From Pseudomonadales bacterium (GTDB taxonomy: Bacteria; Pseudomonadota; Gammaproteobacteria; Pseudomonadales; Azotimanducaceae), in contig JANQKS010000036.1 of NCBI GenBank assembly GCA_028281005.1, positions 1-64,000 of the forward strand: a stretch of 64,000 nt of DNA, written 5' to 3'. This document shows positions 3,574 to 21,399 of this stretch, piece by piece. The first letter of the stretch is position 1; every line of letters starts with the position of its first letter. The notes beneath the pieces are model-generated. The model saw only the letters and a program-made list of their open reading frames with translations. It made no database searches and was not told the origin of the DNA. The position numbers and the translations under genes were made by a program.

Positions 3574-3605
3574 GAACCCTTTTGCTGCCCACCGTGACCT
3601 ATAGG
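3574..3605 (+). promoter_or_regulatory. Candidate ECF promoter of the secreted protein gene at 3628
   Basis: TTTGAACC (GAAC at 3574-3577) is followed after 21 bases by CTATAGG, with GTGAC just before it. Spacing is identical to the sites at 9155, 9633 and 17895. The predicted start of transcription falls near 3610, shortly before the AAGG ribosome site of the next gene. Confidence 0.6.
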
Positions 3606-3627: not shown

Positions 3628-3978
3628 ATGAAACTGATCCGCTCCTGCACCGCCATTTTGGTCCTTGCCGCCACGGTATTCTCTCAATGCGTCTACGCAA
3701 CCGAATGGAGCAACGTCGCCATCAACGGGCAACGGCTGACCGTTACCCAGTTGCAAGAGTTGCAGATGCAGATCGGATCCGCGATTACCCCAGGGTCCTA
3801 CTTGGTCGACGCGCAGGGGTGTTGGATGAATCTGAACACCGGCCAAAGCGGCTGTCTGGGCAGTGGCGGTAGCGTAGAGTCCTATTCCTCCCGTTACGGC
3901 AGTGGCGAACGCACCAGCGATGGCAGCTGGAACCACTACAGCTGCATCTACACCACCACCGGTTGGTCCAACTGCTAG
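3628..3978 (+). CDS. Small secreted protein, unrecognised
   Basis: I do not recognise a family. The 116-residue product has a clear signal peptide (MKLIRSC, hydrophobic core, cut near VYA). The mature part is Ser, Gly, Tyr and Trp rich and holds four Cys (GCWMN, GCLGSG, YSCIY and the C-terminal Cys), consistent with two disulfides in the periplasm or outside the cell. The last residue is Cys. AAGG precedes the ATG. It stands alone between the PEP-CTERM gene and a convergent response regulator, and has one of the best copies of the shared ECF promoter pattern, so it probably belongs to the same regulon. Confidence 0.7.
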   Translation: MKLIRSCTAILVLAATVFSQCVYATEWSNVAINGQRLTVTQLQELQMQIGSAITPGSYLVDAQGCWMNLNTGQSGCLGSGGSVESYSSRYGSGERTSDGSWNHYSCIYTTTGWSNC

Positions 3979-6650: not shown

Positions 6651-7580
6651 CTAGAATCGGTACTTAGCCTCAAACACCACGCCATCGTTTTGTGCGTCAA
6701 AGTCATCGTTGTCTTCGTCAAAGTAACTTAAAGACAACGAAATCTTATCCGTGGGGAAATAATTGGTCCAAACTTCCCAACTGTCGGTATCTCCGCTGCT
6801 GTCGCGGTCAGCGGTCATGAAGTTGGCGCCCACGCCAAAGGCGTCGTTGAAGAACCAGCTGATGTTCACCGCAATGTCGGAGCCATCGTCATCCCCAAAA
6901 TCGGCATCGCCGCGCACGTCTGCGTACAGCAGCTGCGCCTGCCAGGTCATGCCGTTTTCCAACTGCTGGACGTGGGTAACGTCGATACTCCAGGTGTCGT
7001 AATCGATGCCGTCAAAGTCTTCAGTATCAAACCCCACTCGCAGCTGGGTGTACTGGGCCAGGTAATAGGCCACCGCGGCACGATAGAGATCGACGTCTTC
7101 GTCAAAAATCCCGGCATCGATGTCGGTCTGACCAAAACCACCTTCCAGCACCCAGCCGCCGTTAATGACCACCCGGGTGAACAGCTGCCAGGTTTCCGTT
7201 TCGATGTCGGTGTCGTCGGTTTCGATGGTGCTGTAAGCACCGCCAACGCTGGAGGCCCGATCCATAAACGGCGCCAGCAATCTTGGCCCGAGTGAGGTAT
7301 CGACGGGTTCGAAGAAAATTTCACCGGCAACCTGCCAGCCGCTGTAATCCTCATCCGAGGAGGAGCGATCGAATGAAGACGGCTCGACCGGTGGCGAACC
7401 CGTCGGCGGTGAGCTGGTGGGCGGCGGGTCCGGGTCCGAGGAAGGCGGGGGTGTGTAGTCCAACGAACTCTCCGAAACAGAGATGTCGCCCGTTATATAG
7501 CCAAAACTCACTTCGCCGCGGTAATCCGCCCAAGCGGCGGGGGGAGCAAAACACAACACAGTCATTAGAACCTTGCGCAT
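6651..7580 (-). CDS. Outer-membrane beta-barrel protein
   Basis: The product has a signal peptide (MRKVLMTVLCFAPPAAWA) and a Pro/Ser-rich insert near residues 43-70. It continues with alternating amphipathic strands rich in aromatic and acidic residues, and ends in KYRF, the usual aromatic last residue of outer-membrane barrels. About 309 residues would suit a barrel of 12-16 strands. It may be a porin or a signal-sensing barrel; no specific family is recognised. AGGAG lies eight bases before ATG 7580; a GTG directly before it is the alternative. It sits 57 bases after the ECF sigma gene and 45 before the kinase gene, so the four genes probably form one operon. Confidence 0.8.
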   Translation of the reverse strand: MRKVLMTVLCFAPPAAWADYRGEVSFGYITGDISVSESSLDYTPPPSSDPDPPPTSSPPTGSPPVEPSSFDRSSSDEDYSGWQVAGEIFFEPVDTSLGPRLLAPFMDRASSVGGAYSTIETDDTDIETETWQLFTRVVINGGWVLEGGFGQTDIDAGIFDEDVDLYRAAVAYYLAQYTQLRVGFDTEDFDGIDYDTWSIDVTHVQQLENGMTWQAQLLYADVRGDADFGDDDGSDIAVNISWFFNDAFGVGANFMTADRDSSGDTDSWEVWTNYFPTDKISLSLSYFDEDNDDFDAQNDGVVFEAKYRF

Positions 7581-7637
7581 CACAATATCTCCTTCTTCAA
7601 TAAAGTTGCAAAAAAAGTTCCAAAAAGCTCAACAAAT

Positions 7638-9013: not shown

Positions 9014-9154
9014 GTTTTGGTCCGTCCTCAACCTGTTCGCACTTCTTAGCATTCGCTACGCGCAGGCGGCTCCTTACGGGTCGCCTGCATTGTTTTAGCT
9101 TCGGCAGAACCGCGAACCAAACCTATTACTTTTGAACGCCCCGCAATTATTTTT

Positions 9155-9186
9155 GAACCTCCCCGCAACCAGGTGTGACTTATCTT
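9155..9186 (+). promoter_or_regulatory. Candidate ECF promoter of a short transcript
   Basis: TTTTTGAACC (GAAC at 9155-9158) is followed after 21 bases by TTATCTT, with GTGAC directly before, as at 3574. A second -35-like copy (GAAC at 9134-9137) lies exactly 21 bases upstream and shares the following YCCCGCAA, so the element is a tandem direct repeat. Confidence 0.5.
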
Positions 9187-9387: not shown

Positions 9388-9414
9388 TCAAGCCCGTCAC
9401 CAGACGGGCTCTTT
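9388..9414 (+). terminator. Intrinsic terminator
   Basis: GAGCCCGTC-type arms are visible: AGCCCGTC, loop ACCA, GACGGGCT, then a run of six T. The stem is GC-rich and perfect. It ends whatever is transcribed from 9155 and also any read-through from the gene at 8393. Confidence 0.85.
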
Positions 9415-9574
9415 TTTGTGGCACATTTACCTACCCTCAATCTAACGGTTGCAACATAGCGGCGATTGCGCAATATTTCTTGTTTCGGGGGGCATTTAGG
9501 CTGCGAAAACAAAAACATAGAGCAACCACCTGCCAAAAGTCATACGGTATGCGCCCAACCTAAGCAAACGGTTC

Positions 9575-9610
9575 GCTATTTATCGCGTCTACACAGCAGG
9601 AATAAATAGC
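9575..9610. promoter_or_regulatory. Inverted repeat upstream of the sigma operon
   Basis: GCTATTTAT (9575-9583) and ATAAATAGC (9602-9610) are perfect 9-base arms with an 18-base spacer. They end about 22 bases before the -35-like GAAC at 9633. There is no T-run, so a regulator site is more likely than a terminator. Confidence 0.45.
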
Positions 9611-9632
9611 CAAAAAAAGACAAAAAAACTTT

Positions 9633-9663
9633 GAACCGTTTGCCAGCTGACTGTTACTCAAGG
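9633..9663 (+). promoter_or_regulatory. Candidate autoregulated ECF promoter of the sigma operon
   Basis: TTTGAACC (GAAC at 9633-9636) is followed after 21 bases by TCAAGG, with GTTAC directly before. The site at 17895 shares the nine bases GTTACTCAA at the same distance. A sigma factor reading its own promoter is usual for this class. Confidence 0.6.
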
Positions 9664-9698
9664 ACTGAGTCACATGCAATAAGAGGTCGTTGGGACCC

Positions 9699-10334
9699 AT
9701 GCCAGTCGCACAGTTGAGCATCATGTCTGCTATATCTCATGCAGAACAGAGCAGCAGCGCCAGCGAAGACGCCGATCAAGGTCTCATCGCGCGCATTGCT
9801 GAAGGTGATAAACGCGCCTTCGAGCAGCTCTTCACAGCCTACGGCGAACGGGTATTCCGTTACGCTTACCGCCTGATCAGTGATCAGACGAAAGCCGAAG
9901 AAGTCACCAACGATGTCATGTTGGAAGTGTGGAAAACTGCCGCCAAGTTTGAACGGCGCTCCAAAGTGAGCACCTGGATCCTCGGCATCACCCGGCACCT
10001 GGCGTTAAACGCCGTGCGCCGCAAGCAGTTGGACACGGTGGATGTGGATGACGCGCCGGAAATCGCCGCGCCAGAAGACAACACCAGTGCCCGCGACCAC
10101 GACCATCAAGTATTGCAGAAGACTCTACGCGAAGCCCTGAGCAAATTGTCGCCAGAGCATCGCGATGTCGTGGAGCTGACCTTTTTTCACGGCTGTTCTT
10201 ACGCGGAGATTGCAGAAATTGTGCAATGTCCGGAAAACACCGTGAAAACCAGAATGTTTCACGCCCGTAAACAACTCCAAGGCCTGCTGGTGGAAGCCGG
10301 CCTGGACCCTGCAAATGTGGAGATGGCGTCATGA
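9699..10334 (+). CDS. ECF sigma factor, first gene of the subtilase operon
   Basis: Region 2 is FTAYGERVFRYAYRLISDQTKAEEVTNDVMLEVWKTA and STWILGITRHLALNAVRR; region 4 is LSPEHRDVVELTFFHGCSYAEIAEIVQCPENTVKTRMFHARKQL. About 211 residues is normal. ATG 9699 is preferred; TTG 9690 and ATG 9723 are alternatives. The stop overlaps the next start (ATGA), and that next gene encodes a membrane anti-sigma factor, so the two are translationally coupled. It is paralogous to the sigma factor at 7638. The most likely regulon is the set of genes with the GAAC-21-YYA promoter pattern in this window. Confidence 0.93.
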   Translation: MPVAQLSIMSAISHAEQSSSASEDADQGLIARIAEGDKRAFEQLFTAYGERVFRYAYRLISDQTKAEEVTNDVMLEVWKTAAKFERRSKVSTWILGITRHLALNAVRRKQLDTVDVDDAPEIAAPEDNTSARDHDHQVLQKTLREALSKLSPEHRDVVELTFFHGCSYAEIAEIVQCPENTVKTRMFHARKQLQGLLVEAGLDPANVEMAS

Positions 10335-11005
10335 ATCGACAAGAAGCACAAGAGCTGTTGCCTTGGTTTGTCGCTGGCACCTTGAACGAACAGGAAACCC
10401 GAGCCGTTCAAGCGTTTATCGACAGCGGCGAAATTACCAGCACGGAGCTGGATGAACTCAATATGTTTGCCACCGCGGTTAATGAACAGACCGCGGACGA
10501 ACCCGAGTACAACCCGGCTATTCTGAATAAAGCCATGGCGCAGCTGGATGCCACGCCGCAGGACGCCATCGAGGAACCCCTGGTGGTCGGTGAAGCCGAA
10601 CCCCAGCGCGGCGGATTTTTCGCCAATCTGCTGGACCGTTTGCAATGGTCACAAACCCCAAGCATGGCCAAACTGGCGCTCGGCGCTCAGTTTGCCGCAG
10701 TACTGGCGTTGGCCGTAGCGGTAGCGGTACCCGGCGGCCAGGACATGGGTGGTGCGTATTACGAAGTGGTCTCCGGCACCAATCCGGCGCTTGCCGCGGA
10801 CTTCAACATTGCCTTTGCCCCGGACACCACAGAAACCGCGGTGCGCGAACTGCTGCTGGAACTGGATGCACAAATTGTTGCTGGGCCCAATAGTCTTGGT
10901 ATGTACGGCATCGCCTTACCTGCCGAAACTGACTTGGCCCAACTGCAAGCCCAGCTAAACAGCAACGCGCTCGTCACCTACGTGCAACCGGCGGCCAACC
11001 CATGA
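10331..11005 (+). CDS. Membrane anti-sigma factor with subtilase-propeptide-like periplasmic domain
   Basis: The cytoplasmic N-terminus (MNRQEAQELLPWFVAGTLNE) matches the sigma-binding part of zinc-less anti-sigma factors. One membrane span lies near 117-133 (FAAVLALAVAVAV). The periplasmic part (about 150-220) contains FNIAFAPDTTETAVRELLLE, AQIVAGPNSLGMYGIALP and VTYVQP. This pattern resembles the I9-type inhibitor/propeptide fold that precedes subtilases. The gene overlaps the sigma gene by 4 bases and the first subtilase gene by 4 bases. The inference is that a subtilase binds or cuts this domain and so controls release of the sigma factor. Confidence 0.8.
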   Translation: MNRQEAQELLPWFVAGTLNEQETRAVQAFIDSGEITSTELDELNMFATAVNEQTADEPEYNPAILNKAMAQLDATPQDAIEEPLVVGEAEPQRGGFFANLLDRLQWSQTPSMAKLALGAQFAAVLALAVAVAVPGGQDMGGAYYEVVSGTNPALAADFNIAFAPDTTETAVRELLLELDAQIVAGPNSLGMYGIALPAETDLAQLQAQLNSNALVTYVQPAANP

Positions 11006-12558
11006 GCGCACGTCTGGGCACCTGTCTCGCTACTCAGCGCGCCCGGGTAAAACTGCTCGTTGGGTGCATGCTGCTGGCCATCGGTGCCAGCAGTTATGCC
11101 GCCAGCCCGCCGAATGACCCGCACTACAACGCTGAAGGGTCATGGGGGCAGGATTTTGCCGACCAATGGGCGCTGCGCCAGCAGCGTGTGTACGCCGACA
11201 TTGCGCCGAATGATGCCGATGAGGAGATCATCGTTGCGGTGATCGACACCGGTCTCGACTATACCCATACCGATCTCGCGGCAGAGAAGCTCTGGCAAAA
11301 CCCCGCTGAGCGTAAAAACGGCCGTGACGATGACAATAACGGCTACGTAGACGATCTCATTGGCTGGAATTTTGTCGACAACAACAACAACCCCTGGGAT
11401 TTGAGCGGTCACGGCACCCACATTGCGGGTGTCATTGCAGCCTGCACCAACAACGGCATAGGCATCGCCGGCGCCAATCCCCAGGCGCGTATCATGGCGT
11501 TGAAAGCCGCCAACTTCATTGGCCAAGCCCGCAGCAGCGCCGTGGCCGCGGCGATCTACTACGCGGTAGACCATGGCGCACGCATCATCAATCTAAGCCT
11601 CGGTGGTGAGCTCGTCACTGAATTGGAAATAGAAGCGGCCAAATATGCCCAACAACAGGATGTCCTCATCCTGGTGGCGGCGGGTAACCAAGGTGTGTCC
11701 GCCGAGCAACAAGGTTACTCCACGCTGCCCGGCGTGCTGGTGGTGGGCGCCAGCGACCAAGTGGGTCAGCGCGCTGGCTTCTCCAACTTCGGTAACAACG
11801 TGGCACTGCTCGCACCAGGCGTGGACGTGTTATCCCTACGTGCGGAAGACACCGACTTTATTGCGCTCACCAATCCGCTGGATTATCCCGACGAAAGTGC
11901 GGTGGTCGGCGAAGAAGGTGAGTACTACCGCGCCTCCGGTACATCATTTTCCACCGCGCTGGCAACAGGTATCGCCTCGCGGGTTCTAAGCCAGCGCCCG
12001 GAATTAACCAGCGGCGAGCTGCGTGAGGCACTGGTGCAAACCGCCACGGACGTAGAACCGCCGGGGGTTGACCAGCTGTCCGGTTATGGCCAACTGGACT
12101 ACGTCGCCGCCCTGCAGGTCGAGCAAGGCGCCTTTGTGCACGCACGCTTGGCCAGTGCCGAACTCGAGCTAGCCGACACCCAGCTGTGGATCAAAATTCA
12201 CGGCACCGCCGCGGCAGCGAACTTTGCCAGCGCTGAATTGCACCTGCGCGCGGTGGCAGGATCCATACCCGTAGAGGAAGAAGATCCGAAATCCAAGAAG
12301 AAAAAGCGTAAGGGAGACGAACTGCCTGAACCCACCCCTTACGACTGGCAGGTCATCAGCACCTTAAACACACCGGTGAAAGCTGAACAGCTCGGACGCT
12401 ACAGCATCACCGAGCTGACCAAACTGGCCGGCGGCTCCACCGCCTGGGAAGTGCGGTTGCAAGTCACCGATGCCGATGGCAGCCAACGCGAAGCCTTTAT
12501 GAGCCTTGGCTTACCCAGACCTGAAACACCCGCCGAGGAGGTTGCCCAAGATGGTTAA
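11002..12558 (+). CDS. Subtilisin-like (S8) serine protease 1
   Basis: The 518-residue product has a signal peptide (cut near SYA). Its triad is Asp82 (VAVIDTGLD), His137 (SGHGTHIAG) and Ser315 (GTSFSTALA), with oxyanion Asn229 (AAGNQG). It has no room for a normal propeptide between signal and catalytic domain: the domain begins by about residue 50. A DDDNNGYVDD segment near 109-118 looks like a calcium site. After about 385 comes a beta domain with a Lys-rich loop (KSKKKKRK). It is exported and probably periplasmic or surface-bound. The missing propeptide and the propeptide-like domain in the adjacent anti-sigma factor suggest they interact. Confidence 0.93.
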   Translation: MSARLGTCLATQRARVKLLVGCMLLAIGASSYAASPPNDPHYNAEGSWGQDFADQWALRQQRVYADIAPNDADEEIIVAVIDTGLDYTHTDLAAEKLWQNPAERKNGRDDDNNGYVDDLIGWNFVDNNNNPWDLSGHGTHIAGVIAACTNNGIGIAGANPQARIMALKAANFIGQARSSAVAAAIYYAVDHGARIINLSLGGELVTELEIEAAKYAQQQDVLILVAAGNQGVSAEQQGYSTLPGVLVVGASDQVGQRAGFSNFGNNVALLAPGVDVLSLRAEDTDFIALTNPLDYPDESAVVGEEGEYYRASGTSFSTALATGIASRVLSQRPELTSGELREALVQTATDVEPPGVDQLSGYGQLDYVAALQVEQGAFVHARLASAELELADTQLWIKIHGTAAAANFASAELHLRAVAGSIPVEEEDPKSKKKKRKGDELPEPTPYDWQVISTLNTPVKAEQLGRYSITELTKLAGGSTAWEVRLQVTDADGSQREAFMSLGLPRPETPAEEVAQDG

Positions 12559-14854
12559 GCGCACCCTTATGCATGCCTCTAAGCACACGCTTAAGCACAC
12601 CCTGGGCAGCCTGTGTTTGCTGCTGGCGATCAGCAGCGCCGCGGCCAGCACTAATAATGAGTATGCCCAGCAGTGGCAACAACCATTGCAGATCACGTTG
12701 CCTGAACCCACCCGCAGCGTATTGCTGTCCAGCATGGTGGAACCCGCGCAATGGTTAGCGGAACACAACATCACCGATGCCCAGCTGTTGCGCCAGGGGC
12801 GCAGCACTATGGTGCAGTTCCCCATGTCGGAAGAAAACTGGGCGATGCGCGAAGAGGCGCTGTGCGGCAGCCCAGGTGTCGCAGCGTGTGACGCCGGGGC
12901 CTGCAAAACCATTATGTTTCGTGCCCAGGCGGGTAACGCCTCCGACACGGAAAAAGTGAAAGCCCGCATCATCGAAACCCCGCCAGACATTGAAGAAACC
13001 GAAACGCTTGAAGAAAACGGCGGTGTTTGCCGCAGCATAGTGCCACCTCCGCTGTTACCGCCAGAAAGCGGCGCGGTGCCGAACTTAACTTTGGACTTCA
13101 GCCAGATGCCGCGGCGCGACGATGCACGTCGCCGAGCAACCTCACCGTCTTCCTCATCCACTTCCCCATCCACTTCGAGTGACGCGGCGTCCACGCAGAC
13201 CGGCCCCGATCTGTCATTGCAAAAAGATGCTGCCACCAGCCCACAGGTGGCTGATAGCGCGGGTGCTACCGACAGTATCAGCCAGGGAGAGGGTGCTCAA
13301 ACCCCTGACACAGTTGCACCAGACACGGCCAGCGCAGCTGCCGAAAGCAGCCCAACCGAAGTTGCCGGGTTCGATGATACCCAGACTACCGAAGCGGCCA
13401 GCGCCGATGGGGCCGCAACGGATCAGCCGGGCGCTACAGACAGTGGCTCATCTGTGGAGACCGAGGCGTCTGAGGTGGCAAGTGCAGAAACACCTGCTGC
13501 GGAACCTTTCGACCCGATGGATTTGTACAGCAATGCCGCTGCTGCGCTACGCGCCGTGGATTTTCAGCTGCAGGTGGCACCAAACTTCACCGACGGCGCC
13601 AATCTTTCCAGCAGCCAATTACCCGCCGACACCACCGATTACAGCCTCATGGTGGGTGAAGGCTGCCAAGCCGTTACCGTTCCGCTGTCCAGCGTAGCAC
13701 CCGCTCGGGTGCCGAACTTGATAGTCGCGCTGGTCAACGGCGACCCCGCCACCGTAGGTGCGGTACATCGTCTTTCACCCATCAAGCAAAGCCAGCTCGC
13801 CAGCACCGGCGACACGCTGGTGGTTTACTACAGCGCGCGCCCGGTGCCGCAAGTGTTACCGCTGTTGCGCCTAGACAGTAACTTCCTGATGGTGGAACCG
13901 GAGCACATCTTCACCACCAGCGCGGCAGCGGCGAGTTATTCCGATCCGCTGGCCACCTTTACCTACGGCCCGGCACACACCGGTGCTTTGGCCCTGCACA
14001 GCGATTCCACCGGCCAGGGTGAGACCATCGCGGTGATTGATACCGGGGTGGCACTTGAACACCCAGATCTGCAAGGGCGGGTGAAACATGAAGACTTCAC
14101 CGATCTTGGCTGGAGCGAAGATGCACACGGCACAGCCGTAGCCAGCATCATCGCGGCCGCGGCCAACAACGGTTTAGGCAGCTACGGGGTGGCCCCGGAC
14201 GCTAACATTCTGGCGCTCAAAGCCTGCCAGCCAAAACAAGAGGGCGGACTGGCGGCACGCTGCTGGACAAGCTCTCTGGTAAAAGCGCTGGATGCCGCCA
14301 TCAGCCAAGATGCACAAATCATCAACATGAGTTTGGCCGGTCCGCCGGATGAAATCTTAAGCAAATACGTTGAGTTGGCTGTCACCCAAAACCGCCTGGT
14401 GATTGCAGGTGCCGGCAACGGCGGACCGCAGGCTTTACCCGCTTTTCCCGCGGCGATCCCCGGTGTACTTGCAGTCACCGCCATCGACCGCAACAACCGG
14501 CCGTATCGTGACGCCAACCAGGGCGACTACATCGACATCGCCGCACCTGGCGTCGACATCATCACCGCATCTCCGGGTGAAGGTTTTCCCGCTTCTTCGG
14601 GCACCTCGTGGGCAGCGGCTCACGTTAGCGGTATCGCTGCGCTTTTAAAGCCGCTAATGCCTTTGGCCACACCCGCAGACATCGCCTTTTTACTGCGCAG
14701 TGAAACCACAGACCTGGGCGCACCCGGTAAAGACCAACAATTTGGCTACGGCGTGGTGGACGCGTGTGCCGCGGCTTCAGTTGCCACCGCCCAGGCCATC
14801 ACCTGCGGTGAGGCTGATATCAGCTTAGAAAGGAGTATCGACAGTGCTGAGTAA
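12551..14854 (+). CDS. Subtilisin-like (S8) serine protease 2 with long N-terminal part
   Basis: ATG 12551 follows GAGGAGG and starts a signal peptide (cut near SAAAS). Residues about 40-180 form an N-terminal domain with several Cys. About 185-330 is a Ser/Thr/Ala/Asp-rich low-complexity linker. A second domain follows to about 480. The catalytic domain has Asp497 (VIDTGVALEHPDL), His526 (DAHGTAVASI) and Ser686 (GTSWAAAHVSG). The gene overlaps the preceding protease gene by 8 bases. Two unlike subtilases in one sigma operon suggest distinct steps, for example one in signalling and one in processing surface proteins; this is inference. Confidence 0.92.
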   Translation: MVKRTLMHASKHTLKHTLGSLCLLLAISSAAASTNNEYAQQWQQPLQITLPEPTRSVLLSSMVEPAQWLAEHNITDAQLLRQGRSTMVQFPMSEENWAMREEALCGSPGVAACDAGACKTIMFRAQAGNASDTEKVKARIIETPPDIEETETLEENGGVCRSIVPPPLLPPESGAVPNLTLDFSQMPRRDDARRRATSPSSSSTSPSTSSDAASTQTGPDLSLQKDAATSPQVADSAGATDSISQGEGAQTPDTVAPDTASAAAESSPTEVAGFDDTQTTEAASADGAATDQPGATDSGSSVETEASEVASAETPAAEPFDPMDLYSNAAAALRAVDFQLQVAPNFTDGANLSSSQLPADTTDYSLMVGEGCQAVTVPLSSVAPARVPNLIVALVNGDPATVGAVHRLSPIKQSQLASTGDTLVVYYSARPVPQVLPLLRLDSNFLMVEPEHIFTTSAAAASYSDPLATFTYGPAHTGALALHSDSTGQGETIAVIDTGVALEHPDLQGRVKHEDFTDLGWSEDAHGTAVASIIAAAANNGLGSYGVAPDANILALKACQPKQEGGLAARCWTSSLVKALDAAISQDAQIINMSLAGPPDEILSKYVELAVTQNRLVIAGAGNGGPQALPAFPAAIPGVLAVTAIDRNNRPYRDANQGDYIDIAAPGVDIITASPGEGFPASSGTSWAAAHVSGIAALLKPLMPLATPADIAFLLRSETTDLGAPGKDQQFGYGVVDACAAASVATAQAITCGEADISLERSIDSAE

Positions 14855-15869
14855 AATCTTAACTCAAGGGCTTCTGAGCGCTGCGCTGCTGTGCAGCACC
14901 TCCGCCGAGGCCAGGGATTTCATCCCTGCATCGGACAAAGGCGACTTTCAGTATTCCGCCCCGAGCGCCTATCCGGACATCAATCTGGACACCACACCCA
15001 TCGAGCAGCAAATTGCGAGCGATGCCGCGACACGCTGCGGCACACCGCTGGCCGCGGCGCCGCTGGACCTGGGTAACGCACAAAGTGTCATGGGCAAAAT
15101 GGTCGGTGCCGCGGCCAATGCGGCCATCGGCCAGTTGGTGGGCGGTTTGCTTGGCGGCGGTGGCGGCGGCAGCAACAAGAAGCCGCGCATGGCCAAAGAC
15201 CCCATCAAGAAGAAGTTTAAACAAAAGATTGAACACCCCGGCGGGGATGCAAGAATCCGCATTGGCGGCCAGGCCTACAGCGATGGTTTGTTGATCAGCG
15301 CCCGGGTAGATAAAGCCGCCGGTAAAGGCACTTTCCACACCATGTTCTTAGAGCAGCCGGATTGCCGCCGCATTTGGCCCGAAGCCTACGCGCAGTATGG
15401 TTTATGGGGCAGCTGGAGCCTCTCGGTTTCGGTCACTAAGACCAAAAGCACCTACCGCGACGGCCAGCTGGTGGACCGTTCGGTGTCCAGGTCCGGTTGG
15501 TCAAAATCCGGGGACTTTGATTTATCCCGCGGTTTTTCTCTGTGGGATCAGCTGCCCGGGGAAGACTTACGCATGATCTTGGACGCGGACGAAGCTTACT
15601 TAACCCAATTGCGGCGGGAGATCGACACGCCGGCCTGGCAGCAGATGGGTTACGCCAAACCCGTCGAAGGTATCCGCGCGGCGGGTGGTGTGTTTCGCTT
15701 GAACCCGCAAGAAATCACGTCGGACACGTTAGCTGTTGTGCACATTACGCACGTGGAGAAAGGACGCTATCGCACAGTGGGTTTTCCACTGCGCATGAGC
15801 CCGCAAGGCGACGGCTTGATGGCGTTTGACTTGCACCCGGGTTTTCAGACACTGTTGGCGAGCGAATAA
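14844..15869 (+). CDS. Secreted protein with glycine-rich segment, unrecognised
   Basis: GTG 14844 follows AAAGGAG and overlaps the protease gene by 11 bases, so it is the last gene of the operon. The 341-residue product has a signal peptide (cut near AEA). A helical Ala/Gly segment runs into a Gly-rich stretch (about 85-110, VGGLLGGGGGGS), reminiscent of glycine-zipper proteins. A Lys-rich patch (KKKFKQK) comes next, and then a long beta-rich domain with WGSWSLSVSV and SLWDQLPGEDLRMILDADE. I recognise no family. It may be a substrate or partner of the two proteases or an envelope-associated structural protein. Confidence 0.75.
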   Translation: MLSKILTQGLLSAALLCSTSAEARDFIPASDKGDFQYSAPSAYPDINLDTTPIEQQIASDAATRCGTPLAAAPLDLGNAQSVMGKMVGAAANAAIGQLVGGLLGGGGGGSNKKPRMAKDPIKKKFKQKIEHPGGDARIRIGGQAYSDGLLISARVDKAAGKGTFHTMFLEQPDCRRIWPEAYAQYGLWGSWSLSVSVTKTKSTYRDGQLVDRSVSRSGWSKSGDFDLSRGFSLWDQLPGEDLRMILDADEAYLTQLRREIDTPAWQQMGYAKPVEGIRAAGGVFRLNPQEITSDTLAVVHITHVEKGRYRTVGFPLRMSPQGDGLMAFDLHPGFQTLLASE

Positions 15870-15881
15870 CGCGGCTGCAAT

Positions 15882-16220
15882 TCACTTCGGCTGCGCCAGG
15901 ACAACCAGATTGTTATCAGGGTCACGCATCAGCACCAGGTGAAAAGAAGTAGCCGGCTCAATCTCGCCCGGCTGCAAGCCTTCCCGGACTAAGCGCGCCC
16001 GCTCTTCGGCCAACCCCTGCACGACGATGGTCAGAGTCCCGTGGCCGGCGTTTGCAGCGTCTTCAAACAATTGCAAACCGGCGCAATCTTTGTGATGCCA
16101 TTCCGCCAGGTCACTCATCGGCTCTTCGTCCGCAGTGCGGCCAAACAACTTTGCAAACCAGGCTGCGCTAACGCTTAGGCTGGAACAGGCCAGCTGGGCA
16201 TAGATCCTCTGGATATTCAT
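15882..16220 (-). CDS. VOC-family (glyoxalase/bleomycin-resistance fold) protein
   Basis: A short VOC domain begins with MNIQRIYAQLACSSLSVSAAWFAKLFG, the usual first beta-alpha unit, and ends with HLVLMRDPDNNLVVLAQ, the last strand with its DP-N motif. About 112 residues is one VOC module. ATG 16220 overlaps the stop of the upstream short hydrolase frame (ATGA). It is divergent from an HxlR-type regulator, which probably controls it. Substrate unknown. Confidence 0.8.
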   Translation of the reverse strand: MNIQRIYAQLACSSLSVSAAWFAKLFGRTADEEPMSDLAEWHHKDCAGLQLFEDAANAGHGTLTIVVQGLAEERARLVREGLQPGEIEPATSFHLVLMRDPDNNLVVLAQPK

Positions 16221-16459
16221 GCAAGCACCTTTAACAACGCCGGGCCACCTAACGAATGCGCGACGATGGTCGACGCGGGGCTCAGCTTTTGTAAGAACGT
16301 GTCCCCCGCCTCTGCCCAACGCGCAAAGTCCAAACTCTCTAATCCGCTGAAGCGGGGATACTCAACCGCGAAGTGTTGCGATAAAAACGTTTGCAGGTGT
16401 TGATCCTCAACGTATGAGCCTTCGCCACCGCCGTGAACCAAGAAAACTTCTTGTTGCAT
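16217..16459 (-). pseudogene. Truncated alpha/beta hydrolase
   Basis: The 80 residues show the start of a small serine hydrolase (MQQEVFLVHGGGEG) and the nucleophile elbow AHSLGGPALLKVLA, where the frame ends. Family members of the RBBP9/YdeN type need about 180-190 residues, with Asp and His of the triad later. Those are missing, and the stop overlaps the VOC start. The gene therefore seems to be the 5' remnant left by a deletion, now coupled to the VOC gene. A functional miniprotein is possible but unlikely. Confidence 0.65.
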
Positions 16460-16473
16460 ATTTCCCTCCCAGC

Positions 16474-16505
16474 TATACTAATTAGTGTTTTAAACCGGTT
16501 TAAAA
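16474..16505 (+). promoter_or_regulatory. Probable HxlR operator and promoter
   Basis: TTTTAAACC-GGTTTAAAA (16488-16505) is a perfect 18-base palindrome. It lies in the 56-base gap between the divergent hydrolase/VOC pair and the HxlR gene. TATACT (16474-16479) with TTGTTG 17 bases upstream could be the promoter of the regulator gene, so binding at the palindrome would block it. Confidence 0.65.
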
Positions 16506-16515
16506 ATAGCATCGG

Positions 16516-17016
16516 ATGAAGTCAGACGCAACTCTCCAAACCCGCTCCGGGTGCCCCATTAACCTAACCCTGGAACTGTTGGGCGACAAATGGAGCCTTA
16601 TCGTGTTGCGCGACATCATCTTTGGGAATCGGCGTCACTTTCGAGAGTTGCTCAATCACTGCCAGGAGAAGATTCCCTCCAACATGTTGGCAAACCGTTT
16701 AAAACGGCTGGAACAAGCAGGCGTGTTAAGTCGCGCGCCGGACCCCAGTCACAAACAAAAGGTGCTGTACTCACTGACAGAGCAGGGCATTGAGCTTTTC
16801 CCTCTACTGGCACACGCCTCAAGCTGGGGGTTGAAATATCTGCCGGTTTCCGACGAGTTGGGCGCGCGCGCCCAGGTGCTGGCCGCTGGCGGCGAGCCGC
16901 TATGGCGGGACTTCATGGATGAGTTACGCGCGGAACACCTTGGCGCCAAACGGGACCAACGCCAAATCTCGGTGCGCGAACGGCTACAGCAGGCTTATCT
17001 AGACGCCGTTCAATAG
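16516..17016 (+). CDS. HxlR-family transcriptional regulator
   Basis: The 166-residue winged-helix protein has the family start CPINLTLELLGDKWSLIVLRDI, which includes the N-terminal Cys often used as a redox or aldehyde sensor. It goes on with FRELLNHCQEKIPSNMLANRLKRLEQAGVL and SLTEQGIELFPLL. The family usually controls a divergent neighbour; here that is the hydrolase remnant and VOC pair. A perfect palindrome lies at its start. The C-terminal tail (about 120-166) is longer than the minimal domain. Confidence 0.92.
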   Translation: MKSDATLQTRSGCPINLTLELLGDKWSLIVLRDIIFGNRRHFRELLNHCQEKIPSNMLANRLKRLEQAGVLSRAPDPSHKQKVLYSLTEQGIELFPLLAHASSWGLKYLPVSDELGARAQVLAAGGEPLWRDFMDELRAEHLGAKRDQRQISVRERLQQAYLDAVQ

Positions 17017-17064
17017 GCGATTTCGCCCCTGTAAGCTTTCAGAAGATCAGAAGATCTGAGCAAT

Positions 17065-17820
17065 TCAGCTGCTGGCATAACGTGCAATGTAAAAGCCATA
17101 ACTGAAGTAATCCCGATACTGCTCATACAGGGCAATTTCTGCTTTTTCCTCCGCCACCAGCGCTGCCGCCGCATCTGCATGCTGATGACGGCTCAAAAGT
17201 TTGTCGAAGTGCAGCTGCAGCGGGCGATAGTAGTTTTCAAGCCAACACTGCTCAGGCAACACAAAGTAGCCGGTAGGCGTAAACCCCAATCGTTCGAGCA
17301 CCGCCATTTTCGCGGCTGCGGTGTCGACTTCGGGGTAAGCTTTGCTCCAGTAGTTGTGCAATTCAGCGGGGCGAGTGGCGGTTAGCCATGTCAGTTCCGA
17401 CACCGCGAGGATGCCATTGGGTTTGAGGTACGCTCGCCAGGCCTCAATCCCCGCGGCAAATCCCATATTGTAGATGGCTCCCTCGGACCAGATGGCATCC
17501 AAACACCCGGGGCCAAACGGCAGGGTATCCATTGACGCCCGGACGCTGCTCACGCGACTGCTCAACCCCGCTCGCTGAGCGTTATCTTCCAGCTTGCGTA
17601 AAAATTGGGGCGCAAGGTCAACCGCGGTGATGTGCGCATCCAGTGCTTTAGCCAGAACCAGCGTTGATGCGCCGCTGCCACAGCCAATGTCGGCGATCTG
17701 TAGACCCGCTCTGGCCTGCAGGCCGGAGAGCGCAAGCGCTAAGCGCGTGTGTTCATCACTGCCTGGGCCTTGGCGCTGACCCTGGGCATGTAACTCTATC
17801 AAGAGCCCTAAATCATCCAT
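17065..17820 (-). CDS. SAM-dependent methyltransferase (class I)
   Basis: Motif I is IADIGCGSGAST (about 42-53), the acidic end of strand 2 is ITAVDLAP, and the post-motif is LDAIWSEGAIYNMGF. Length 251 is normal for a small-molecule class I enzyme. The tail is Tyr-rich (YRDYFSYGFYIARY). Substrate unknown. It is monocistronic and its start faces the promoter region of the DND-repeat operon. Confidence 0.85.
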   Translation of the reverse strand: MDDLGLLIELHAQGQRQGPGSDEHTRLALALSGLQARAGLQIADIGCGSGASTLVLAKALDAHITAVDLAPQFLRKLEDNAQRAGLSSRVSSVRASMDTLPFGPGCLDAIWSEGAIYNMGFAAGIEAWRAYLKPNGILAVSELTWLTATRPAELHNYWSKAYPEVDTAAAKMAVLERLGFTPTGYFVLPEQCWLENYYRPLQLHFDKLLSRHQHADAAAALVAEEKAEIALYEQYRDYFSYGFYIARYASS

Positions 17821-17894
17821 GCAGTGATGTTATCCAGGTCATCGCACACTTTTTTATACTTTTTCACTTTTTTCATTTTTTTTCTCTTTTTGAT

Positions 17895-17926
17895 GAACCT
17901 CGAGCAAACAGCCCGTTACTCAATTG
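17895..17926 (+). promoter_or_regulatory. Candidate ECF promoter of the DND-repeat/CsgG operon
   Basis: GATGAACC (GAAC at 17895-17898) is followed after 21 bases by TCAATTG, with GTTAC directly before. GTTACTCAA is the same nine bases, at the same distance, as in the promoter of the sigma operon at 9633. T-runs precede it (17845-17890). The start codon lies about 55 bases further on. Confidence 0.6.
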
Positions 17927-17979
17927 TCAAGGCAGACAGCAGTCGCCGAAATTTGAAAACCCCAGTAACGGAGATCGAC

Positions 17980-18891
17980 ATGAAAAAAGTATTTACCCCC
18001 ACCTTAATCTTGGCTGGTTTGATGGCCGCAGGTACCGCAGTTGCGGATACGCCTTACGGCTCTTGGTCACAAGCCTCCAGCGCCGACCGCATCACTGAAG
18101 TTGCGATTGACGATTCATTTAACCGTTCCAGCAGATCATCTGTTGAACAAGACAATGACACGGACATTGATGTTCGCAAGTCCAGCTCACAAGACAACGA
18201 TGTAAACATCAGCAAGTCTAATAAGGAAGACAACGATGTTCAGATCACCAAGTCTTTCGAGCAAGACAACGACATCACCAAGACGTGGACGCAAGACAAC
18301 GACGTGCACAAAGACTTCCGCTACAGCAGCGACTATCGCAACGTAGAGGACAATGACGTCAACAAGGAATTCACCTACTCCTCTGACTACCGTCACAGCG
18401 AAGACAACGATGTTCATCAAGACAATGACGTCACCAAGTCTTGGCAGCAAAGCACAGACGTTGACTTCCAGATCGCCACGCCCACGCTGACGGGCTACAA
18501 GCACCAGGATCAGGACGCCGGCCACGCTGCCAGCCAGTCTGTTCTCGGCGCCGCTCGCGGTCACTCGGTTGCAGTTGAAGGTGGTCCCACCTCTGTAAGC
18601 GCCGGCAACGACGAAAATGTGTTCTTCGGTCCAACCATGCAGAACACCAACGTCAACATGCTGCCGCAGACCGACATCCTGGTAAATGGTGCCAACTACG
18701 CTCCGATCAGCGCGGTAAACACCATGGCAGGTCGCGACATGGGTGACAAAGGTGTGTTCGCCCCGGTTGGTAACACCTCAGCTCAGGTTTCTGGTGACAC
18801 CTTGCAGCGCTCTTCCGCAGGACTGAGCCAGTCTGGTGACTCTGCCAACTCCATCGCTGACCAAATGAACGCCAGCATCCGCAACAAATAG
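17980..18891 (+). CDS. Secreted DND-repeat protein, probable CsgG-system substrate
   Basis: ATG 17980 follows GGAG and opens a signal peptide (MKKVFTPTLILAG, cut after AVA). Of 303 residues, about 58-151 hold eight copies of a D-N-D-(V/I/T) unit spaced 14, 12, 12, 10, 18, 18 and 6 residues. Two of them sit in an 18-residue repeat with YSSDYR. The second half (about 165-303) is Gly/Asn/Ser/Gln-rich without Cys. No family is recognised. Repeats, export, a downstream terminator and a CsgG-family channel in the same gene cluster all fit a fibre or matrix subunit. The acidic repeats could bind calcium. Confidence 0.8.
   Translation: MKKVFTPTLILAGLMAAGTAVADTPYGSWSQASSADRITEVAIDDSFNRSSRSSVEQDNDTDIDVRKSSSQDNDVNISKSNKEDNDVQITKSFEQDNDITKTWTQDNDVHKDFRYSSDYRNVEDNDVNKEFTYSSDYRHSEDNDVHQDNDVTKSWQQSTDVDFQIATPTLTGYKHQDQDAGHAASQSVLGAARGHSVAVEGGPTSVSAGNDENVFFGPTMQNTNVNMLPQTDILVNGANYAPISAVNTMAGRDMGDKGVFAPVGNTSAQVSGDTLQRSSAGLSQSGDSANSIADQMNASIRNK
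18148..18432 (+). repeat. Coding repeats for D-N-D units
   Basis: GACAACGA/GACAATGA recurs eight times in frame, mostly as CAAGACAACGA or GAAGACAACGA. The spacing at DNA level is variable (18-54 bases), so this is a protein repeat and not a CRISPR array or tandem satellite. Such repeats can change in number by recombination. Confidence 0.8.
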
Positions 18892-18914
18892 GACCACCCG
18901 GTCTTGTAACCCAC

Positions 18915-18939
18915 AAGGGGGCTTTATGCCCCCTTTCTC
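18915..18939 (+). terminator. Hairpin terminator or attenuator inside the CsgG operon
   Basis: AAGGGGGC, loop TTTAT, GCCCCCTTT then CT. It lies 24 bases after the repeat-protein gene and before the two small secreted protein genes. Partial read-through would give much more of the repeat protein than of the secretion components. Confidence 0.7.
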
Positions 18940-19010
18940 GGTAGGCGCTGCAGGTCAATTGAACAACCGCTTCGATGCCTACAGCAACACGCACAGCACA
19001 GGAGAATGTC

Positions 19011-19448
19011 ATGCGACATCTACTACTCATCACCGCCGTTTTGCTCAGCAGCACCTTCAGCTTAGATACCCGCGCCGAGCAAAGCCAGCAACAAGCTGAG
19101 GCCAACGCCAAGCAACAGATGCTGCAGCGTATTTATCAGATGCGCATGCGCTTCGAGCAAGAGCGCGCTCAGGCAGACAATGAAGCCCGCGCTAACGTGC
19201 GCCTCATCACCGACAGCGGCCGTGGCCCGAGCCGCGGCATCGACAGCCCCACGGTAACCGGCTTGCGGCAACAAACCAATCAACAGTTGGCCCGCTTCGA
19301 AAGCAAGTTTGAGTGCTTGGACATCGAGGTCGAGGACAACAGCGGCAACACCGTGGTGATCTGCGGCGACAACAGCGGTGACATCAATGGCACCAACGTG
19401 TCGGCCCAACGCGACATCATCACCGTCAACGGCGGCGGCCAGAATTAG
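19011..19448 (+). CDS. Small secreted protein of the CsgG operon
   Basis: ATG 19011 follows AGGAG and a signal peptide begins there (MRHLLLITAVLLSS, cut near TRA). Of about 145 residues, 30-65 are helical and Gln/Ala/Arg-rich, a possible coiled coil. The end is short beta repeats rich in Asn and Gly (DNSGNTVVICGDNSGDINGT) with two Cys (FECLD, VICGD). The Asn/Gly end recalls amyloid or beta-helix proteins. A nucleator, chaperone or minor subunit role is inferred from the position between the repeat protein and the channel gene. Confidence 0.7.
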   Translation: MRHLLLITAVLLSSTFSLDTRAEQSQQQAEANAKQQMLQRIYQMRMRFEQERAQADNEARANVRLITDSGRGPSRGIDSPTVTGLRQQTNQQLARFESKFECLDIEVEDNSGNTVVICGDNSGDINGTNVSAQRDIITVNGGGQN

Positions 19449-19473
19449 GTCGCCGTCGCATAGGAGAAATACC

Positions 19474-19806
19474 ATGAAACGCACTTTCAGAAATTTATGC
19501 GCCAGCCTTGCCACCGCCAGTTGTTTGCTCGCGGCAAATGGCTCCAGCGCCAACCCGTTTGTATATCCCGGTAGCTTCCCCGGCTTCATCGTGCTCGCAG
19601 AGCAACGTTACGACCCTGCGATCCAACGTTTGATGGCAGAGCAGTCACTACGCGCCATGCCGCTGAGAAACGGCCAGCTGTATTACGTGTATCCGGTGGA
19701 AGCGTCCACCGCCTATATCGAGCAAATGCAAATTCGCTACCTGGAAGCGTTGCTGGATAAAAAAGCCAGATCCGCGCCCGCTGCAGTTGAACCTGCAGAG
19801 CAGTGA
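19474..19806 (+). CDS. Small secreted protein of the CsgG operon
   Basis: ATG 19474 follows AGGAG and gives a 110-residue product. A signal peptide is followed by a short domain (FVYPGSFPGFIVLAEQRYDPAIQRLMAEQ) and a helix near YIEQMQIRYLEALLDKKAR, then an Ala/Pro/Glu tail. No family is recognised. It lies 25 bases after the previous gene and about 50 before the CsgG-like gene. By position it could play the part of CsgE or CsgF, the periplasmic adaptor or surface tether, but sequence similarity to those is not visible. Confidence 0.7.
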   Translation: MKRTFRNLCASLATASCLLAANGSSANPFVYPGSFPGFIVLAEQRYDPAIQRLMAEQSLRAMPLRNGQLYYVYPVEASTAYIEQMQIRYLEALLDKKARSAPAAVEPAEQ

Positions 19807-19854
19807 GCGTGACCCATAAGTAACCTAATTGAGACTATGACAAGGACCATCACC

Positions 19855-20856
19855 ATGACCCGCATGACCAAGCTGCTCATCCTCGCCGTATGCGGTATCG
19901 CCCTGACTGTGGCCGCCGGTTTGGCAGAAGCGAAGAGCAAAAAGAAAGACGACCAACTTAAGCCTGAAGAAATGCAAGAGCGCCTGGAAAACCTCTCTTG
20001 CTCGGGCATCAAGCCTCGCGTTGCCATCTACAGTTTTTACGCCACAGGCAAAATGGCCTCGTTTGAAGGTTACAACGTGGGTGACGGTTTGGCTGCGCAG
20101 CTGGCGACCGAACTGACCCGCACCGACTGCTTTGTTGTCCTCGACCGCACCGGATTATCAAACTTGCTGCGCGAACAGGAATTGGGCTTGGCCGGCGTGG
20201 TGTCTGCTGAAACCGCACCCGGCGCCGGCCGCTTGGTGGGGGCAGAAGTCATCATCAAAGGCACCATCACCGAGTTTGATCCGAACAAGCGCGGCGGTGG
20301 CCTCACCCTGGGTGTGGCCCTACCCAACACACCGCTGGGCGTGCGCCTGGGCCGCAACGGCAGCAAAGCGCACGTAGGCCTGGACATCAGCGTGATTGAT
20401 GCCACCAACGGGCAGACTAAGTTCTCACATCGAGTAGTAGCGGATTCCAAAACCGGCGGCTGGACCATTGGCCTCGACTACAAGCGTGCCAGCCTCGGCG
20501 GCGATACCTTCGCCAAGTCTCCGCTCGGCATCGCCTCGCGCAACGCCCTGGGCCAGGCTGTCTTAAAAATCGCCGAGGACCTCAGCCGCAACGTTGAGCG
20601 TCGTTTCCAGATTGCCAGCACCGACGCCAACGAGGTGTACCTCAACGCCAACCGTGCTTCGGGCATCCGCGAAGGTGACACCATGAAGGTCTCCACGGTA
20701 GTCCGCAAACTGGTGGACCCTGCCACGGGCTTGCTGCTCGACACGATTGAACGTGAAGTGGGCAAGGTACGCGTCGTCGAAGTGACCGAGCGGTACGCAC
20801 GCGCCGAACTGATTGACGGTGAGCGTATCCGCCGCGGGGACTTTGTACACCTCTAG
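19855..20856 (+). CDS. CsgG-family outer-membrane secretion channel
   Basis: The CsgG/HfaB core is seen in VAIYSFYATG, GLAAQLATELTRTDCFVVLDRTGLSNLL and EQELGLAG. It continues with GRLVGAEVIIKGTITEF and, in the barrel part, DISVIDATNGQTKFSHRV. CsgG forms a nine-subunit channel that exports unfolded amyloid subunits. ATG 19855 follows AAGGA. The leader (cut near AEA) has a Cys but no convincing lipobox, whereas E. coli CsgG is a lipoprotein. The end (about 255-333) adds a domain with GIREGDTMKV and RIRRGDFVHL. It is the last gene of the operon, with a hairpin after it. Confidence 0.85.
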   Translation: MTRMTKLLILAVCGIALTVAAGLAEAKSKKKDDQLKPEEMQERLENLSCSGIKPRVAIYSFYATGKMASFEGYNVGDGLAAQLATELTRTDCFVVLDRTGLSNLLREQELGLAGVVSAETAPGAGRLVGAEVIIKGTITEFDPNKRGGGLTLGVALPNTPLGVRLGRNGSKAHVGLDISVIDATNGQTKFSHRVVADSKTGGWTIGLDYKRASLGGDTFAKSPLGIASRNALGQAVLKIAEDLSRNVERRFQIASTDANEVYLNANRASGIREGDTMKVSTVVRKLVDPATGLLLDTIEREVGKVRVVEVTERYARAELIDGERIRRGDFVHL

Positions 20857-20878
20857 GCGTGCGCATCTGCTAACGCCT

Positions 20879-20902
20879 AACCCGGCTTAGCGCCGGGTTT
20901 GC
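20879..20902 (+). terminator. Hairpin terminator after the CsgG-like gene
   Basis: AACCCGGC, loop TTAGC, GCCGGGTTT. The T-run is only three bases, so termination may be partial. It ends the operon that starts at 17980. Confidence 0.65.
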
Positions 20903-20921
20903 CCTCGGATATCCCTTAGTG

Positions 20922-20947
20922 AGTCGCCCTGCCTGTGTAGGGCGACT
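20922..20947. repeat. Inverted repeat before the cytochrome gene
   Basis: AGTCGCCCT and AGGGCGACT are perfect 9-base arms with an 8-base loop, 20 bases behind the terminator. It has no T-run. It may act as a second stop for the operon or as a 5' structure for the cytochrome gene. Confidence 0.5.
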
Positions 20948-20988
20948 TCGCTTAAACTGTTTAGATATACCTAGCGGGAGAGCCAAAT

Positions 20989-21399
20989 ATGCGAAAGCTG
21001 ATCTTTCTCACCACCGTGTTGGTGGCAGCTTGTCAGACCCAAGCCGAAGTGGATACGCCAGATTACTCCGCGGTTCGCGGCGAACACATTTTTGCCAAAC
21101 ACTGCGCCACCTGCCACGGCGCCAGCGGCGAAGGCATCGAACCTTGGTACCCTTCACTACAACGCCTGGCGGCCCTGCGTGAACCCAACGACATGATCGA
21201 AACCGTCATTACCGGACGGTTTCGTCGTGGCGGCGAAATCAACGGCCATACCATCCCCATCATGCCGGCATGGGGTCAGCTTTCTGATGCAGACGTGGCT
21301 GGGATCGTTAACTACATCCAACAGAATTGGGGGGACGGCGGCGAGGTCAGCATTCAAGATGTCTCTGCCACTAGAGCCCAACTGTGGGAACTGGATTAA
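20989..21399 (+). CDS. Mono-haem c-type cytochrome, probable lipoprotein
   Basis: The 136-residue product has a leader ending in LVAAC (lipobox-like). One CATCH haem site lies at 39-43, and the probable axial Met is in IPIMPAWGQLSD. Class I cytochrome c fold (VAGIVNYIQQNWG is the last helix). It carries electrons in the periplasm. It is monocistronic, ended by a shared terminator, and convergent with a cytochrome c'-like gene. The cbb3 oxidase 5 kb away is a possible acceptor; this is inference. Confidence 0.9.
   Translation: MRKLIFLTTVLVAACQTQAEVDTPDYSAVRGEHIFAKHCATCHGASGEGIEPWYPSLQRLAALREPNDMIETVITGRFRRGGEINGHTIPIMPAWGQLSDADVAGIVNYIQQNWGDGGEVSIQDVSATRAQLWELD

Follow-up and report, generated by a model that had tools for sequence, protein, structure and literature searches.

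A CsgG-family gene cluster with a candidate non-curlin substrate and a putative extracytoplasmic function sigma factor switch in uncultured gammaproteobacteria

We analysed a window of 64,000 nucleotides from a Pseudomonadales bacterium of the family Azotimanducaceae (contig JANQKS010000036.1 of assembly GCA_028281005.1, positions 1 to 64,000) and discuss here a gene set centred on a CsgG-family protein, which is rare and found in uncultured gammaproteobacteria. Four genes follow one another on the plus strand, and the starts of all four products look by eye like signal peptides. P0001 (17980..18891, 303 residues) is a protein with D-N-D repeats and the candidate main substrate. P0002 (19011..19448) is a small exported protein with two cysteines that are invariant among its homologues and a C-terminal motif in common with P0001; P0003 (19474..19806) is another small exported protein, of unknown function. 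P0004 (19855..20856) belongs to the CsgG family (Pfam CsgG, E 1.5e-28) and ends in a FlgT_C-like domain (E 2.7e-5). None of P0001, P0002 and P0003 reached a Pfam or NCBIfam cut-off. The original prediction enclosed these four genes in a box from 17980 to 20856. They do lie there in a row, with the two small exported proteins between P0001 and P0004 as it had described, but the box is too small: the unit begins at about 9632, and a second half made of a sigma factor, an anti-sigma factor and subtilases had been overlooked, together with a promoter motif common to the two halves.

This second half, also on the plus strand, opens with the gene of an extracytoplasmic function (ECF) sigma factor (9723..10334; Pfam Sigma70_r2, E 1e-15, and Sigma70_r4_2, E 3.5e-17), for which we used the first ATG of an open frame beginning at 9690. 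The anti-sigma factor gene that follows (10331..11005) encodes a zf-HC2-like start, one membrane segment and a C-terminal part resembling a subtilase prodomain. Next come a subtilase in which no prodomain was recognised (S8a, 11002..12558; Peptidase_S8, E 3.8e-51, residues 74-363), a subtilase with a long N-terminal region (S8b, 12551..14854; Peptidase_S8, E 4.4e-43, residues 488-734) and P0005 (14844..15869), an exported protein of unknown function that matches no Pfam family.

The four genes from P0001 to P0004 keep together. In our main sample, 206 genomes of the host's bacterial family, the P0002 profile matched 12 genomes in 7 of 37 genera, and in 12/12 of them P0001 to P0004 are consecutive and keep their order, a check that had been asked for with the original prediction; a scan of the genome contigs with P0004 gave seven loci, each with the four genes in one order and on one strand. 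The proposal of a non-curlin substrate candidate next to a CsgG-family gene is thereby borne out, with P0001 firmly linked to P0004 in all 12 genomes. Searching with P0004 itself matched 42 of the 206 genomes (E<=1e-5), and the identities have a gap in their middle. Above it are the host genome and another 11 with relatives at 62-83% identity, and these are precisely the 12 genomes with P0002; below it, matches are at 33% identity or less over most of the length, with the exception of one genome (G848) at 55% across 65 residues. Close CsgG relatives occur only in the 12 genomes with P0002, and a search for such relatives lacking the small proteins and the repeat gene found none among the 206. 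The host genome has a second CsgG-family gene on another contig (C73, 546-1196; loci L002 and L044), about 27% identical to P0004, and relatives of P0001-P0003 were not found beside it.

Outside the family sample, matches were few. The P0002 search of 390 genomes of the order returned the host genome and one false match (G331, 7.1e-4), which we rejected since it falls in a gene that we take to be MlaC. In 369 genomes of the class, the P0005 search returned the host genome and three relatives in other settings (G463, G687 and G753); these are longer proteins without the other cluster genes alongside in the DNA read, which for G687 was a contig of 4.2 kb, and we set them aside. Among the relatives of G062, 5 of 77 genomes gave matches, in the same places as the P0002 profile. 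Both the order and the class sets are samples, and rare cases elsewhere therefore remain possible.

The two halves also mostly occur together. P0005 precedes P0001 in 10 of the 12 genomes, in some with other genes between; of the two exceptions, one contig begins at P0001 (L014) and the other has a different neighbourhood (L063), in which the genes before P0001 look by eye like conjugation genes. The anti-sigma profile matched 34 of the 206 genomes at E<=1e-6, and 12 of them at more than 200 bits, 11 of which are among the 12 with P0002. In one genome (G892) both halves are present, with sigma, anti-sigma and S8a on a different contig from P0001-P0004. As for the DNA between the halves, the window has three unrelated genes between P0005 and P0001 (15882-17820), including those of an HxlR-type regulator and a methyltransferase, and loci L041 and L042 have other genes at this place. 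In L062 an exported protein (10640-11608) sits between P0005 and P0001, and by eye it looks homologous to one that the window encodes close to the cluster (6651-7583).

A promoter motif of ECF type connects the halves. The sequence TGAACC-N15-GTTACTCA occurs as an exact match before the sigma gene (9632..9660) and before P0001 (17894..17922), and nowhere else in the window; with two mismatches it also occurs before P0004, overlapping the end of P0003 (19788..19816). All three sites are on the plus strand. Using the search pattern GAACC, 13-18 bases, GT[TG]AC[TC][CT]A, we found the motif (GAACC-N15-GTTACTCA) upstream of the sigma gene in 10/10 genomes with that gene in the DNA examined, upstream of P0001 in 12/12 copies from 11 genomes, and upstream of P0004 in 11 of 12 genomes (the exception is L062); the spacer is 15 bases in every sigma and P0001 site. 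One genome (L015) has two copies of P0001 (2436-3239 and 4205-5008), each preceded by the motif. Shuffled upstream regions matched the pattern in 7 of 44,000 cases (single-base shuffles), a control that is after the fact because the pattern was first spotted by eye in the very regions upstream of sigma and P0001. The window holds four sites with up to two mismatches against 0.27 expected, whereas a looser pattern is at chance level (8 found, 6.46 expected). The motif is absent before P0002, P0003 and P0005 in the 5, 3 and 5 loci checked, respectively, and a scan of 9400-21100 for sigma-70 promoters found none against 4.2 expected. Since the same motif precedes sigma, P0001 and P0004, these units very likely form one regulon, judging from their upstream sequences, and the ECF sigma factor is most likely what drives its own gene, the candidate substrate genes and the CsgG-like gene.

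Some further sites of this kind deserve mention. Applying the pattern afterwards gave the P0004 site and one before a small gene divergent from sigma, which encodes about 55 residues (L042 2477-2647, L043 1165-1329, L064 5577-5738, L074 359-523); a weak relative of this protein in L075 has no such pattern. Other sites have no clear gene downstream, as at L043 1045 and at 9154-9182 in the window, where a promoter-like site with two mismatches is followed only by an open frame of 28 residues. Another pattern site in the window (3574-3601) precedes a 116-residue exported protein that matches no Pfam family (3628-3978) and is possibly a further cargo. Relatives of this protein occur close to the cluster in L039, L062 and L063, and there the site is absent from the preceding 350 bases.

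The anti-sigma factor and S8a are the likely elements of a switch. Among eight anti-sigma homologues, zf-HC2 was matched in seven (E<=0.1, best 5e-7) and a single hydrophobic membrane segment is present in all eight; the protein in the window scores 14.7 bits with zf-HC2, under the cut-off of 22.2. When structures were searched with the anti-sigma profile, the anti-sigma factor ChrR was returned (E 0.0098). The four S8a homologues that were scanned have an S8 domain only, and of eight S8a proteins read by eye, five begin shortly before the catalytic domain and three have a longer extension. Because the end of the anti-sigma factor resembles a prodomain and S8a shows none, the anti-sigma factor may supply the subtilase prodomain in trans. 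The available excerpt of PMC8999054 describes subtilases near ECF54 sigma factors that have no anti-sigma factor. In the open-licence literature searched, we found no description of a subtilase prodomain on an anti-sigma factor, or of subtilases neighbouring one.

P0001 is the candidate for what this system exports. The eight D-N-D units reported for it are indeed there, each preceded by E or Q; in 20,000 shuffled versions of the mature protein the mean count was 0.40 and the highest 5. Nonetheless, the counts in nine aligned copies (8, 6, 6, 6, 7, 3, 8, 1 and 0) run from eight to none, so the repeat is variable and we rejected it as the defining feature of the family; the conserved part is the C-terminal half. 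That half had been called rich in Gly, Asn and Ser, which holds insofar as G, N, S and Q make up 37.7% of residues 166-303, although alanine is the commonest residue (13.0%). No cysteine occurs in the mature protein in 9/9 copies. Downstream of the gene, the predicted terminator is partly there: an 8-pair stem-loop (18915..18935, plus strand, z -2.19) could be a partial terminator, but it has only a weak T-run, and the consensus terminator scan of the plus strand did not list it. A strong stem follows P0001 in 12/12 genomes, and a run of at least five T follows the stem in 8 of 12; these counts were read by eye from the folds, with the shuffle control applied to the window only and the other 11 genomes judged by eye alone.

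The two small proteins had been assigned the places of adaptor and nucleator, and this found no support. P0003 matched neither CsgE nor CsgF, and P0002 neither CsgB nor CsgF, when compared with single E. coli sequences, comparisons that are weak as negatives; for P0002, only the motif in common with P0001 was found. This motif of about 25 residues was aligned by hhalign with P 4.1e-5 and a probability of 69.8%. The P0001 profile scored 4.6 to 17.3 bits against eight P0002 proteins, of which five exceed the best of 1000 shuffles (6.6). Perhaps P0002 is a minor subunit, which we offer as a lead from sequence comparison and not as a result.

From these elements we propose that a CsgG-type system exports a cargo other than curlin and assembles it at the surface, governed by a sigma factor that proteolysis probably releases, a reading whose chances we consider about even. 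Gene order, co-occurrence, the promoter motif, the domain families and the conserved stem after P0001 are what the sequences show; the roles of P0004 as channel and P0001 as cargo, the polymer, the protease trigger and the action of this sigma factor on the promoters are proposed on that basis. We infer that the membrane anti-sigma factor would hold the ECF sigma factor while its periplasmic domain, the end that resembles a subtilase prodomain, most likely interacts with S8a. Proteolysis of the anti-sigma factor would free the sigma factor, which could then transcribe its own unit, the P0001-P0002-P0003 unit and P0004 from one promoter type. In the outer membrane, P0004 would assemble into an oligomer of the CsgG type and export P0001, the main subunit; P0002 would be a minor subunit, P0003 would help in the periplasm, and the end product would be a cell-surface polymer or coat. 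A more specific version, in which the anti-sigma factor of a surface-polymer system without curlin holds the prodomain of the neighbouring subtilase in trans, and one proteolytic event in the periplasm frees the sigma factor and activates substrate, channel and protease together, we regard as rather doubtful.

Several results weigh against this proposal. Besides the origin by eye of the promoter pattern, one genome (G851, 77% complete) has a close anti-sigma relative without P0002, and another (G858, 74% complete) has P0002 without such a relative. An AlphaFold prediction of P0001 from nine sequences gave no confident residue (mean predicted local distance difference test score, pLDDT, 33.8); the low value fits an unfolded or polymerising protein, and equally a shallow alignment. 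The window's own P0002 reaches just 4.6 bits with the P0001 profile, under the best shuffle (6.6), and the reverse search with the P0002 profile against P0001 gave at best 5.5 against 7.6 for shuffles. The Fervidolysin_NPro-like C-terminal part was found in only four of the eight anti-sigma homologues (E<=0.1, best 4e-5), the window protein scores 20.2 bits with it, under the Pfam cut-off of 21, and the structure search with the anti-sigma profile returned no prodomain. In P0004, finally, the lipobox is absent in 8/8 copies, the predicted structure is poorest in part of the hairpin region (residues 145-168 and 201-220 lie below pLDDT 50), and Foldseek ranks the LPHT ring and FlgT first (query template modelling score, TMq, 0.54 and 0.49, over 303 and 308 columns), with CsgG structures behind them (0.34-0.40) and a root mean square deviation of about 7-10 for all listed matches.

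These features of P0004, together with a FlgT_C-like domain in 8/8 copies (E<=0.01), would suit a different architecture, in which P0004 is a FlgT-like ring or scaffold at the outer membrane that holds P0001-P0003 as structural proteins of the periplasm or envelope, whose state the sigma and subtilase half would sense. This is the main rival to a channel, and we consider it unlikely. FlgT_C is the only FlgT domain listed and, at 24.9 bits, stays under the cut-off of 27, and the extra C-terminal domain of P0004 probably accounts for part of the lead of the LPHT ring and FlgT in the structure search. The family named in the original prediction holds: the Pfam CsgG match (PF03783) spans 197 of 210 domain positions, the domain was found in 8/8 copies, and a profile comparison aligned P0004 to residues 31-189 of E. 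coli CsgG (P 1.1e-6), while the narrower NCBIfam CsgG model, whose cut-off is 505 bits, gave 16.8. P0004 also has the region of the CsgG hairpins, which is conserved; there the model (mean pLDDT 61.2, predicted template modelling score 0.58) places strands at 132-145, 151-155, 162-182 and 188-207. A channel is the likelier of the two, and only likely, because P0004 has no lipobox and FlgT fits its fold better than CsgG does. If instead the cluster were a far-diverged curli or HfaABD holdfast-anchor system, its subunits would have moved past recognition by sequence. The stretch QSGDxxNSIAD in P0001 presumably bears a loose resemblance to the curlin repeat, and in the excerpt of PMC6707917 the CsgG-like HfaB serves the CsgA-like HfaA and HfaD. 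As the original prediction had noted, however, curlin repeats (PF07012), CsgE (PF10627) and CsgF (PF10614) are not recognisable, each being found in 0/12 genomes while the E. coli control was positive. Profile comparison of P0001 with CsgA, like that of P0002 with CsgB, gave no match, weak as a negative because a single E. coli sequence was used. We hold this kinship to be quite improbable.

It is similarly improbable, in our judgement, that the sigma, anti-sigma and subtilase half mainly controls proteases, with P0001-P0004 as mere co-targets, for instance as substrates of the exported subtilases. Such a view draws on 18 loci around weaker anti-sigma matches (L078-L095), from genomes without P0002: sigma, anti-sigma and S8 genes stand together in 17 of them without P0001-P0004, and L095 has no S8 in the DNA examined. 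The promoter motif was, however, not found in these 18 loci, and close anti-sigma relatives and P0002 almost always co-occur. Two other readings were tried and rejected: as a defence system, PADLOC matched only subtilase and IetS models, to S8a and S8b; as a mobile element, P0001 and P0002 had no plasmid matches and P0004 no match in viral contigs.

If the proposed system is real, CsgG-type export extends beyond curlin-like and holdfast subunits, and an entire export system can be governed by one ECF sigma factor devoted to it, whose switch involves proteases. With the motif, the 12 genomes and so few genes, each half can be tested directly in laboratory strains. The recurring triad of sigma factor, anti-sigma factor and subtilase in this bacterial family would deserve a study of its own.

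How, then, does the cluster compare with known systems? We found no description of the gene set P0001-P0004 in the open-licence literature searched. As in curli (csgBAC, csgDEFG), a CsgG-family gene lies beside genes for small exported proteins and for an exported protein with repeats. Unlike in curli, no curlin repeat, CsgE or CsgF was found in the 12 genomes, P0004 has no lipobox and adds a FlgT_C-like domain, and genes for an ECF sigma and an anti-sigma factor adjoin. Excerpts of the literature state that CsgE is missing from some curli systems (PMC3521004) and that curli CsgG is a lipoprotein (PMC8072697). Membership in curli fails on repeats, CsgE, CsgF and the lipoprotein anchor, while a curli-like way of working can still apply. 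The holdfast anchor of Caulobacter offers another likeness: outer-membrane targeting of HfaA and HfaD needs HfaB, so that a CsgG-like protein works with other proteins, and CsgE and CsgF are not named in the excerpt of that paper (PMC6707917). Its regulation differs, NCBIfam gave no match to a family of this kind, and the likeness is drawn from the published description. FlgT of the Vibrio flagellar H ring is among the best whole-length fold matches of P0004 and has a similar C-terminal domain, whereas the gene context of P0004 is non-flagellar in the loci read (by eye) and the CsgG hairpin region is kept. The regulatory half resembles ECF sigma and zf-HC2 anti-sigma pairs in its adjacent genes, Sigma70 regions 2 and 4, membrane segment and the motif before its own gene, and departs from the known pairs in the prodomain-like periplasmic end of the anti-sigma factor and the adjoining subtilases. 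We file the cluster as a variant of CsgG-type systems, one that has a substrate family and a sigma switch to itself.

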